Shown here in pieces: positions 12,943 to 19,815 of a DNA stretch of 64,000 nt. The DNA is from Allolobophora icterica (taxonomy: Eukaryota > Annelida > Clitellata > Crassiclitellata > Lumbricidae): positions 12,033,140 through 12,097,139 of the forward strand of contig OY744605.1 of the NCBI GenBank assembly GCA_963556255.1. Direction: 5' to 3'. Numbering within the stretch: position 1 is the stretch's first letter; each line of letters starts with the position of its first letter. Position numbers and translations under genes: made by a program. A model generated the notes under the pieces. That model was not told the origin of the DNA. It was given only the letters and a program-made list of their open reading frames with translations, and did no database searches.

Positions 12943-15900
12943 TTAGCCTTGATACTCCCGAAGGACCGCGGCAACTTCTGACGTCAGCTGATCGGCGTAC
13001 TCCAGGACGACTACGTTGAAAATGACGACGTTGAAATAGGAGGCGGATGTCATCGAGTCCTTGGACATTGAAGAACTACACGAGGAGTTTGTCTGAAAAA
13101 AGAATATTATTTTGCTCAACTAACAACTACTTGACAGGCTAGCTACTTCAGATAGACAGCGGTACGTAGCCAAGTTTCCTTATACTACGCAGCCTGCAGA
13201 CTCCTGATTTTCTCTTATTTATCGCATTTCGACGTGGCTTCTCTAATAAACTGTGACTCTTACTATGACTTTGATCATGATTTTGACTGTAACTTTGACT
13301 ATGACTTTGACTATGACTCTGACTATATGACTGACAATGACTTTGACTGCGGTTTCGCATGAAGCCGTGTGCGCTATGATAAAAGCGCAATATAAGTTGA
13401 TAGATTAGCTTAGCTTATAGCTAGAGCAGAAATTTGTTTTGATATTTCTGCTGCACCTGCTCCCTCTATAGCCAACTCAGCTATAATGAGTACACTGACC
13501 GTACACTGTCGGTGGAAAGATGAGACGGCGAGGGTAAGGACTGGATCGCCGTCCTCATATGCCGAGGCTAAGAAAAAAAAAGTTGCTAACACTTCATATC
13601 CATGGTGCCTGTCTGGGTTATCTTAAAGGATTGCTCTTCACCCGGCAGGCAGAAGAGTCTTTGACCTATTCATTAAGCTACCTCCAACCGAAGTCACACT
13701 GCTCCTCGCTTAGGGCCTATCCCCCATACGTCTACCAACGCCATATACGATTCTGCTTCCAATGACCTTTCCTCACCCTATGACCTTCGACCTACAACTG
13801 ACTTTCAACCTCCAAATGACTGACCTTTTGCTCGAGTTTAAGGGTCAACCTGGCAGCATAACGTAGGACATATATGAGACGAGTTTCGAAATCTCTGTCG
13901 GTTTGCATTGACTGAGGTAGACGTAGACACAAGGCGGAACAGTCGGCGGCTGGGACTGACTGACTGCAGTTGGGTCCGATCGACCTGTTGACGGTTCCCT
14001 GAACGTCCCTCAGGGCTCTAGTCAGACGCTGCACGTCACCACGAAGTCGACATAAGACCGTCTGACGATTAAACAAAAAATTATTATCGTTGTTCATCAT
14101 CATCATCATCATCATCATCATCATCATCATCATCATCATCATCATCATCATCATCATCATCATCATCATCATCATCATCATCATCATCATCATCATCATC
14201 ATCATCATCATCATCATCATCATCATCATCAATCAATCAATCAATCAATCAATCAATCAATCAATCCGATTTATTAGAACACACGAACAATGTATTATAA
14301 CAGGCAGATTTACAACATATAGGTTAGGGTGTCCCAAGACAAGCCAGGAAAAAAAGTTTTTTTGAAACTTATGACGCAGTCCCTCTAAAAAGTTTCTTTA
14401 TGGTCCCATAAGAACACCTGCAAAATTTTATGACATTTAAAAAATATTTAGAGGTCCCCCAAGGCTCTTAAAATTGGGGTGGTTTGTCCTAAATTATGTG
14501 TGATGTCTCTGAGTTTGAAAATTGCCATAGGATCAGACTTTGATCCCATAATAACATGCTTAGTACCATTAGAAAGCTCTTAAATGGTACAACCTACAAA
14601 CAATGTCAACATAATATAACCTTAAATATGTGAATAAAGATTCAAGTACGAAAAAGACCGAAAACATGCAAAATCGAGATTTCTTGGCTTTAGTTTGTAA
14701 TTTGCAATAGTTTACATAAATTTCCCAATAATATTATTCATGACGATCCTAGCTTCTCTAGTCAACGAAATAGCTGCTCAACATCTTCAGCAGTGCTTTC
14801 TAAGAGTACAATTCACTGTCAACAAAGCATTTTCGTAGGGAAGCTGCAAGAAAACCAAGGATGACTTTCAAGCCGGTAAATCTGTCATGCACTGGGAGGC
14901 AAGCTGCTATCTATGACACCACTGCAGTAGACGTGGACAGAATGCCAGTCCTGATTTCTTCTCTAGTTTATGGAAGTACTAATACTTCTGGGTGTGTCAA
15001 AGCTGGCCTGTGAGTCAGGACAGGCAGCAGTGATAGCAGTTCTGGACCTTTTGAATTCATGGCAGTGCGATTTGCTATCAGCATGTACTTTGACACAACG
15101 GCCTGAAACACCGGCAAAGTTAATGGAGCCTGCACTCTTCTAGAGACAGCCATTGGTCATAATCTGCTGTGCATGGCTTGTCGACATGAAATGCTTGAAG
15201 TCCTGTTGTCTGATGCATTCGTATTGTGCCTTGATAAAGTTTGTCCATCAACTGGGCCTGACATTCTGTTCTTCAACTGATTTATAGATAAATGGTCCAA
15301 ACGGTTCCACCATAAACCCAAGCCTTTTTGATGAAAACGAACCTGTTATCTAGTGAATTACAGGGTATCTAAAGTTTCAACAGATTTGTAGTCAACATCT
15401 ACATCCACTTGTGGTTCTCGTGTCGAGTCGCTGCTGATTCTTGATGCTGTTGCTCTGTAGGCACAGGACTGAAGAATGTGAAGATGATACAGCGTCATTC
15501 TTGGTACCTAAGGTAAAAAGAGATAGTGAACCCTCTCTCTTCTCTCAGCATCTGTCTCCTGAAGAGAAAGCACAACTTATCTCGACCAATGAAAGATGAT
15601 CGAGGATTGCATGTGGTTCAGTCTCTTCCCCGCAAAATAACGGAATTATATATTTCTCGAAGCTTCTTCCGAGCTACCGCCATCGATCGCAGTTTCCTCG
15701 ATATTTCAGTTGCAGAGTTGCTCGAAAGCCAATCATATAAGATCGTTTGTGAGTTTGTTAACAACTTGGCATGTGTGAATGAGAGTGCTCAACGTTGTTT
15801 TGCTCTTATACAGTATGTAACAGTATGTATACAGTATGTAACAGTATTTATACAGTATGTTCAACAAAAATGAAGAACAGAAACAGTTTCTTCTACAAGT

Positions 15901-18900: not shown

Positions 18901-19815
18901 TACTTCTACTTTGTCTTCTTCTCGGGCTCTTATGTCGACGACTCGCTCTTATTTTTATTTCCTCCCCAGCAGACCTGTCAGACCGATCCCGGAACTACGC
19001 CCCATAAGTTTTTAGACTTCTGTCCTAGGTCCAGAATGTTATATTTTAAGTAAAATGAATATCTTAACTTTTTTCTGCAACCCTTAGGCTATCATTGCCT
19101 ATTGCCAAGTTAACTCGATCCCTATCTATCTCTCGGGCCCGGGCCCAAATTCCTTAATTTGTGACTCTATTTAGTTTCTCATTTCCTTTTCTTTATTCCG
19201 TATCATAAATAACATTGCTAAAATTTCTGTTTTTTAAATTCTGTTTCGTGCACCTTTTATGTATAACTTGTTTGTAAGCCACGGTGCGTTTGCAGGTGGT
19301 CTATTAAAGAACATACTTACTTACTTACTTAGAGTCAGAGGAGACCAGAAGCAATCGAATAATACAGGCTTTAAAAGCATATTATCATCCTTATCGGAAA
19401 AATTACGCCGAGTCCGAAGTGGGGGCGGGGGGAAGCATCTATGTGACCCCATACTCTGTTGATTGAGAAGCATGAACCCATACACCATGATACGACCCTG
19501 ACAACCATGTTTGTTGGGCCACATTGGGATCATAACGAGCCATATATATTTGTCGCTCATCTGTGGACCAAATGGGCGTGGTTGTCTGAGGACGCCCCTG
19601 CCCATTAAACTATAATAGTTTCGTTATTTTGCTTACGTAGTTGACATTCAGGTCTCTTGTCCGAATTCTCAGGTCGTTGGCAAGTGATCGCATCGCTTTA
19701 ACAGCTTTAACAGCAGCAGCGGCAACATCATCAGAGGCAAGCGATGTATTTCTGCTCTGACGCAGTGTCGCAGCCATGGTGAGTACGCAGCCGCCGACAA
19801 CCGTGAAAACCGTAA
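12943..19815 (-). CDS. Candidate secreted four-helix-bundle (IL-6/CNTF-type) cytokine, four exons, first exon not found
   Basis: Minus-strand exons: 19815-19637, 18188-18033, 14061-13825 and 13092-12943 (ending in TAA). All have AG acceptors; donors are GTAAGC, GTAAGT and GTCAGT. Entry into the first is phase 1; all later junctions are phase 0. From the internal Met (19777, context ACCATGG) the protein is 227 residues. The 12 residues before it (TVFTVVGGCVLT) look like the end of a signal peptide started in a missing upstream exon. Predicted helices: A about 15-46, B about 76-124, C about 153-177, D about 195-225. Cysteines are at 48, 75, 85, 103, 131, 140, 144 and 184. Sequons include NTS, NET, NRS, NCS and NSS. 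Helix A on one exon, helix D on the last, and phases 1-0-0-0 match IL-6 and G-CSF genes. Fold and family are inference; the exons are well supported as one gene. Confidence 0.6.
13255..13352. repeat. GACT(A/T)T-type low-complexity repeat
   Basis: Imperfect repeats of GACTTTGACTATGACT in the last intron of the cytokine-like gene. The Ser/Gln/His-rich frame visible on the other strand is an artefact of this repeat. Confidence 0.7.
13435..13660 (+). mobile_element. SINE fragment (family 1 body)
   Basis: It shares the block AGCCAACTCAGCTATAA...GTACACTGACCG...ACTGTCGGTGGAAAGATGAGACGG with copies at 18650, 35905 and (reverse) 38330. The tRNA-like head is missing here, so this copy is 5' truncated. 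Confidence 0.65.
14095..14266. repeat. (ATC)n microsatellite followed by (AATC)n
   Basis: About 45 ATC units, then nine AATC units. The array starts only about 33 bases upstream (in the gene's sense) of the 3' splice site at 14062-14064. The poly-Met and poly-Ile frames here are spurious. Confidence 0.97.
14325..16476 (+). mobile_element. hAT-like DNA transposon with long terminal inverted repeats
   Basis: The ends are TAGGGTGTCCC and GGGACACCCTA. They are flanked by perfect 8-bp direct repeats ATATAGGT at 14317-14324 and 16477-16484, the duplication length typical of hAT. Inverted similarity extends inwards several hundred bases: for example, CCTAAAAAGTTTCTTTATGG-type blocks occur at both ends, and AAGCTCTTAAAT lies near 14575 and, inverted, near 16230. 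The element is 2152 bp and sits in the intron between exons 14061 and 18033 of the cytokine-like gene. Confidence 0.85.
14870..15350 (+). pseudogene. Decayed transposase inside the hAT-like element
   Basis: In one plus frame, 15064-15290 reads YFDTTA, stop, NTGKVNGACTLLETAIG, then LLCMACRHEMLEVLLSDAF and STGPDILFFN. It has in-frame stops, and frame changes are needed further upstream. This resembles the catalytic region of a widespread hAT-like transposase family recalled from arthropod and cnidarian genomes. It cannot encode a functional protein, so any movement would need enzyme supplied in trans. Confidence 0.55.
16840..17660 (-). pseudogene. 5'-truncated CR1/L2-like LINE fragment (RT C-terminal half)
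   Basis: Minus-strand frames give, with frameshifts, FADDTNVF (about 17625), SWFKANKLSLSLKKTNF, RFLGVQIDSRLNW and PYISYCNISW. The same order and near-identical motifs occur in the long LINE ORF at 51340-54222 (NWFKANKLSLNLKKTNY, KFLGVYVDQNLTW), so the two are one family. The fragment begins at the YADD-like box beside an ATC microsatellite and is broken into at least two frames. Confidence 0.8.
17659..17877. repeat. Two (ATC)n microsatellite blocks
   Basis: ATC repeats at about 17659-17773 and 17818-17877 are separated by about 45 bases of non-repeat. The second block runs into unique intron sequence of the cytokine-like gene. Confidence 0.95.
18650..19340 (+). mobile_element. tRNA-derived SINE, family 1
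   Basis: The head resembles a pol III promoter: an A-box-like stretch around TGGTTTAGGGTG (18664) and a B-box-like GGTTTAAATTCC (18701). The shared family body follows (AGCCAACTCAGCTATAA, ACACTGACCGCACACTG). A likely 3' tail is (CTTA)n at about 19313-19330. The exact 3' end and the continuity of the middle are uncertain. It lies in the intron between exons 18188 and 19637 of the cytokine-like gene. Confidence 0.65.

Follow-up and report, generated by a model that had tools for sequence, protein, structure and literature searches.

A gene layout with intron phases 1-0-0-0 is common to several class I helical cytokines of the long-chain type, GH and EPO among them. Human IL-6 has coding exons of 19, 191, 114, 147 and 168 nt with these same phases, which sum to 212 codons plus the stop; the IL-6 sequence was verified against PDB 8qy5_B. 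The G-CSF genes of carp, human and mouse are reported to have five exons and four introns (PMC6389648). Here we describe a minus-strand gene in a 64,000-nucleotide stretch of the annelid Allolobophora icterica (contig OY744605.1, positions 12,033,140 to 12,097,139; "the window"), which is conserved in a relative, matches this layout and may encode a secreted ligand of the class I cytokine kind.

Outside the vertebrates, amphioxus GH-like hormone (GHl) is reported as a class I helical ligand of 208 aa. It has low sequence identity to its vertebrate relatives, belongs to a chordate and is called GH-like by phylogeny; the same review reports further genes related to it in amphioxus, whereas neither acorn worms nor sea squirts yielded helical class I ligands there (PMC9010856). 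Among protostomes, the Drosophila Unpaired (Upd) proteins are ligands of the class I-type receptor Domeless that feed JAK-STAT, and are reported from insects (PMC13203501). A crustacean C-type lectin with an IL-like part (IL-CTL) is likewise given as a Domeless ligand (PMC13203501, PMC5645147), but it is a lectin with a coiled-coil part, whereas the protein described here is without any Pfam domain. A 2026 survey places IL-6 family ligands in vertebrates only; it follows JAK and STAT as far back as sponges and IL6R as far as Mollusca (PMC13203501). A gp130-like receptor is reported from Ciona (PMC1963337). Since IL6R goes back to Mollusca, there exists an invertebrate receptor side with no known ligand. 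No lophotrochozoan class I cytokine was found among the matches listed in our literature search, with preprints and most subscription papers lying outside it.

Gene structure and conservation

Four minus-strand exons join to one another in phase 0, and entry into the first of the four is in phase 1. Exon 2 (19815-19637) encodes the rest of the signal peptide and predicted helix A, and ends in DLNVNY. Exon 3 (18188-18033) encodes an AB-loop region with a predicted helix; it starts at C68, the first mature cysteine, and also carries C95 and C105. Exon 4 (14061-13825) holds predicted helices B and C, a long B-C loop and cysteines C123, C151, C160 and C164, and exon 5 (13092-12943) holds the CD loop with C203, predicted helix D (NVVVLEYADQLT) and the stop. 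The acceptors are AG, and the donors are GTAAGC, GTAAGT and GTCAGT.

A search of 5.8 billion proteins, in which 1052 candidates were scored, returned a single match, P0001 (JGI, 261 aa, from a 1043-base contig), with E 1.2e-46 and 51% identity over 80%. P0001 occupies a single, unspliced-looking open frame, in the manner of a transcript. Its match is continuous across three phase-0 junctions (with a slash for the boundary, NY/CS and NE/xVLC, and the exon 4/5 boundary before TS or TN). Identical residues make up 27/52, 29/52, 47/79 and 22/48 of the aligned positions in exons 2 to 5, respectively, and all eight mature cysteines are kept. When P0001 was compared with the window by tblastn, the four exons were recovered in order on one strand (E 3.9e-5, 5.7e-10, 1.6e-20 and 1.3e-6 for exons 2 to 5); the other P0001 matches in the window had E of at least 0.89, and the best match of reversed P0001 was 0.024, in exon 4. 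Because the P0001 match runs through the four exons in their order and over three junctions, exons 2 to 5 are secure. The gene is real, as are its conservation in a relative, its three splice junctions and its eight conserved cysteines. Further relatives were sought with a profile search (8000 candidates sharing most words scored), which returned P0001 only, and with an exon-4 profile search, which returned none from 28 candidates.

These results bear out the four exons and phases of an earlier sequence-only reading of the locus, made without database searches. Its figure of 227 residues is obtained when counting from the internal Met21 of the joined exons; the eight cysteines that it counted are those of the mature protein, a ninth being located in the signal peptide, and its "at least five" N-glycosylation sequons agree with the five N-X-S/T sites found.

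The proposed coding exon 1 (21049-21028, minus strand) encodes MWHFPSL plus 1 nt, ends in phase 1 at a GTAAGT donor, and is located outside the P0001 match. It is the sole ATG-to-GTAAGT phase-1 exon of 2-24 codons within 20 kb upstream, and one of seven such candidates in 128 kb of strand. When GTRAG donors are allowed there are five exon-1 candidates in 5 kb, and one rival (20356-20296, same phase) is also signal-like; it is because of these nearby candidates, and because P0001 does not extend over it, that we regard exon 1 as inferred. Two TATAAA sites, which are consensus matches only, are located at 21099-21119 on the minus strand, 70 and 55 bases upstream of the start codon proposed. With this exon the complete product is 247 aa, with neither stop nor frameshift in 247 codons, and the coding exons measure 22, 179, 156, 237 and 150 nt with intron phases 1-0-0-0.

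The gene is apparently single-copy. In the 1.12-Gb genome, a search with exon 4 (4 candidates scored) found a single match at E <= 0.001, and P0001 gave seven matches from nine candidates, of which three are the gene's own exons and four have E of at least 1.2 and an internal stop. No second copy was thus detected in searches that scored the best candidates only, nor any paralogue at E <= 1 in 264 kb, made up of the window and 100 kb on each flank.

One alternative is that the locus is not a functional gene, the exons being open frames that arose by chance or what is left of a decayed one. Apparent transposon remnants are present in the exon 3/4 intron, and a young long terminal repeat (LTR) retrotransposon starts 358 bases past the stop, with no AATAAA or ATTAAA and one CATAAA in between. 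The P0001 match over three junctions, together with the 247 intact codons and the retention of all mature cysteines, largely refutes this explanation, which we consider very improbable.

Gene layout compared with IL-6

IL-6 and G-CSF resemble the window protein in being secreted (a prediction in our case), in a length of ~200-225 aa, and in having five coding exons with phases 1-0-0-0. The sequence-only reading had pointed to this phase pattern, and the five-exon layout does match, with exon 1 as proposed. In IL-6 and, as predicted, in the window gene, exon 2 encodes the signal and helix A; exon 3 the AB loop, its start at or beside a cysteine; exon 4 both helices B and C and, within its first four residues, a cysteine; and exon 5 the CD loop and helix D. 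The exon 2/3 boundary reads KE/TCNKSNMC in IL-6 and NY/CSKVNNY here, the exon 3/4 boundary FNE/ETCLVK and TNE/TVLCRL, and the exon 4/5 boundary FLQKK/AKN and LEQK/TNS. The placing of helices by exon relies, for the window gene, on predicted helices from low-confidence models; as predicted, they fall on the matching exons, which is consistent with the helix-to-exon correspondence claimed earlier.

With a probability of about 45%, we read the product as a secreted class I-cytokine-like ligand. The functional, five-exon and apparently single-copy annelid gene would then encode a secreted, all-helical protein of ~225 mature residues, probably N-glycosylated and disulfide-bonded. Its putative fold would be that of the class I helical cytokines, a four-helix bundle of the long-chain type with conjectural topology, and it might serve as an extracellular ligand that brings cell-surface receptors together and so turns on JAK-STAT, for example in immune cells. 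The bundle topology, the homology with IL-6-type cytokines, the receptor, the pathway and the role are plausible and inferred.

That the gene is truly homologous to the long-chain class I cytokines (IL-6/G-CSF/GH kind), and that a protostome has thus kept the ancestral five-exon structure, is a tentative proposal that we think rather less than evenly probable. If it is correct, both the ligands as a family and the layout of their genes would be older than the protostome-deuterostome split, and the protein would be a candidate ligand for the lophotrochozoan IL6R/Domeless-type receptors, which have no known ligands as far as two papers go (PMC13203501, PMC9010856). An annelid gene with the IL-6 exon-phase fingerprint makes the ligand question testable, and the fingerprint is a possible search tool where sequence similarity has been lost.

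The sequence-only reading had tied the gene to gp130 ligands in particular. The sole support for this tie is the gene layout, and because 1-0-0-0 is common to GH and EPO as well, the layout does not single out gp130 ligands; this part of the earlier claim is not upheld.

Predicted protein and structure models

With exon 1 as proposed, the 19-residue hydropathy of the window protein peaks at 2.08 over residues 7-25, and several cleavage sites fit the -3,-1 rule, among them that between TMA and ATL. The protein is probably secreted, by a predicted signal peptide that depends on the proposed exon 1. After residue 30 the hydropathy is at most 1.25; a transmembrane anchor in helix D was considered and rejected on this ground. 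Glycosylation and disulfides are predicted only, as are the helices, the signal peptide and the first exon.

Two AlphaFold2 models are all-helical and of low confidence, with mean predicted local distance difference test (pLDDT) scores of 45.3 and 37.7 and predicted template modelling (pTM) scores of 0.38 and 0.32. Both have long helices at P0001 residues 48-70, 87-113, 118-152, 186-215 and 229-259/260, which correspond to A, AB, B, C and D. The hydrophobic moment exceeds that of shuffled sequences (p<0.05) for two of five helices in the window protein (B and C) and for two of five in P0001 (B and D). The four amphipathic helices proposed earlier are thus supported for B and C in the former and for B and D in the latter, and fail for helix A in both.

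Evidence against a cytokine assignment

A number of results weigh against the reading as a class I-cytokine-like ligand. The window protein has eight conserved mature cysteines compared with four in IL-6, and exon 4 has 79 codons compared with 49, with a long, length-variable B-C loop unlike IL-6. Helix A is not significantly amphipathic in either the window protein or P0001, and P0001 as predicted shows no signal peptide of any strength, its 19-residue hydropathy reaching 1.18 at best; the start of P0001 may be missing or mis-called, or its first exon absent.

There is no detectable sequence similarity to IL-6 or G-CSF, and the gene's host, unlike theirs, is an annelid. The window protein had no Pfam match at all, P0001 matched only CENP-L (0.023) and SmAKAP (0.066), both under the cut-off, and neither protein had a relative among PDB sequences. 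Comparison by hhalign with 12 human class I and II cytokines, as single sequences, gave no signal; for 10 of the 12, at least 15 of 40 shuffles scored equally well. Two comparisons were set aside as not being evidence: IL-2, which beat all 40 shuffles but over 19 columns at a probability of 0.18%, and GH1, which beat all but 4 but by aligning the query signal peptide with the GH C-terminus. The profile comparison with cytokine families that the sequence-only reading had suggested has thus yielded nothing by Pfam, PDB sequences or hhalign. Class I cytokines are often without recognisable similarity between families, and since they often fail such comparisons, the missing similarity weakens the cytokine assignment without excluding it.

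The low pLDDT of both models is a further point on this side. With these models the best Foldseek match had E 1.2, with no cytokine among the best 50 of 119 matches, and a VIA structure search had no cytokine among the 50 matches listed. Because the models are poor, these searches are no test of an up-up-down-down bundle; the structural check proposed earlier has given low-confidence all-helical models, with no cytokine among the matches listed.

Searched exon by exon, the genome gave seven weak matches to IL6Ra-bind (PF09240), the best with E 0.33 and none over the cut-off, and on inspection none of the seven loci was convincing as a gp130-type receptor. A gp130-like receptor was therefore not found with PF09240, a search that is weak, as it used one short family model exon-wise. 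In the annelid Owenia fusiformis, the JAK homologue is reported to be without the FERM domain needed for receptor binding (PMC13203501). On the supporting side, STAT_bind gave four matches over the cut-off at three places in the genome.

Another explanation is a ligand with the helical cytokine fold that engages a receptor tyrosine kinase (the CSF-1/SCF/IL-34 branch) and not a gp130-type receptor. Such a protein would likewise be of this fold class, secreted and cysteine-rich, and would be in keeping with the result for PF09240. However, no Pfam match to such families was obtained and no transmembrane anchor follows the helices, and the STAT-domain matches keep the JAK-STAT route open; we judge this explanation improbable.

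The main competitor of the class I-cytokine-like reading is an annelid-specific protein, also secreted, helical and rich in cysteines, that does something else (in defence, mucus, reproduction or small-molecule binding) and whose 1-0-0-0 pattern has an independent origin. Secreted proteins commonly have a phase-1 intron within the signal peptide, and introns in phase 0 are more frequent than those in the other phases; on assumed frequencies, 1-0-0-0 is expected by chance in ~1-3% of four-intron genes, which also weakens the cytokine case. The lack of any relative but P0001 among the 5.8 billion proteins searched, the lack of cytokine similarity, the poor structure models and the lack of a receptor with PF09240 are all in favour of such a protein. 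It would, however, leave as coincidences with IL-6 the four phases, the very short first exon and the helix-per-exon layout, as well as the cysteines in first position, or close to it, in exons 3 and 4; its size and all-helical prediction, moreover, suit a long-chain cytokine. We regard it as a serious possibility, if short of an even chance.

Host and mitochondrial genome

The sequence-only reading had discussed the gene in terms of invertebrate deuterostomes. The assembly includes a 15,328-base mitochondrial contig, in whose cox1 the codons ATA, AAA and AGG fall at conserved Met, Lys and Ser positions, respectively, as judged by comparing translation tables 5, 9 and 24; these positions are universal. 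The three codons fit code 5 and exclude the echinoderm code 9; in enteropneust usage, ATA is Ile. The cox1 wording also looks clitellate to us.

All mitochondrial genes identified are located on one strand. When the contig is treated as circular, they run cox1-cox2-cox3-nad6-cob-atp6-nad5-nad4L-nad4, followed by the rRNA region, tRNA-Ser, nad1, nad3 and nad2, which is the annelid order as in Lumbricus. Ten frames have a fitting Pfam match, nad2 via a general domain only and nad6 under the cut-off; nad4L was assigned by position and cox1 by a separate search, the rRNA region is putative, and atp8 was not identified. A deuterostome host is rejected, the cox1 codons being against both echinoderm code 9 and enteropneust usage and the gene order being annelid. 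Both the mitochondrial code and the order of the genes place the host in the annelids, hence among the protostomes, which makes a cytokine claim more surprising than the earlier reading supposed.

Nuclear copies of mitochondrial sequence are present on contigs C8 and C5 as 14 aligned pieces of 83.8-92.7% identity, most of them at 88-90% and, as their loci overlap, not independent of one another, so the mitochondrion belongs to the host. One locus (C8:61145195-61147845) is an inverted pair of nuclear cox1 copies with ~88-90% identity to the mitochondrial contig. At C257:6513-7808 there is a further cox1-like frame, 721 aa long and stop-free under the standard code, whose DNA is not alignable to the mitochondrial contig; C257 is perhaps of bacterial origin.

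Surrounding sequence

Scanning the window for Rfam families and tRNA genes gave no match. The LTR retrotransposon past the stop of the cytokine-like gene spans 1-12584 and has a gag-pol-like frame (4638-10262) with reverse transcriptase, RNase H and integrase. Its LTRs (1-2096, perhaps cut by the window start, and 10494-12584) are 99.5% identical, which indicates that the element is young. Long open frames at 2803-3789 (329 aa) and 10174-10833 (220 aa), both on the minus strand of this region, have no Pfam match.

At 51322-54219 on the plus strand, a 966-aa frame with endonuclease and reverse transcriptase domains represents a non-LTR retrotransposon, and non-LTR fragments are located at 57025-57450 (reverse transcriptase, just under the cut-off) and 58033-58449 (RNase H). 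Within the exon 3/4 intron, the minus-strand frames 17328-17885 and 16948-17343, the latter with no Pfam match, appear by eye to be remnants of a reverse transcriptase frame like that at 51322-54219. Long TGATGA repeats are located close to both ends of this intron.

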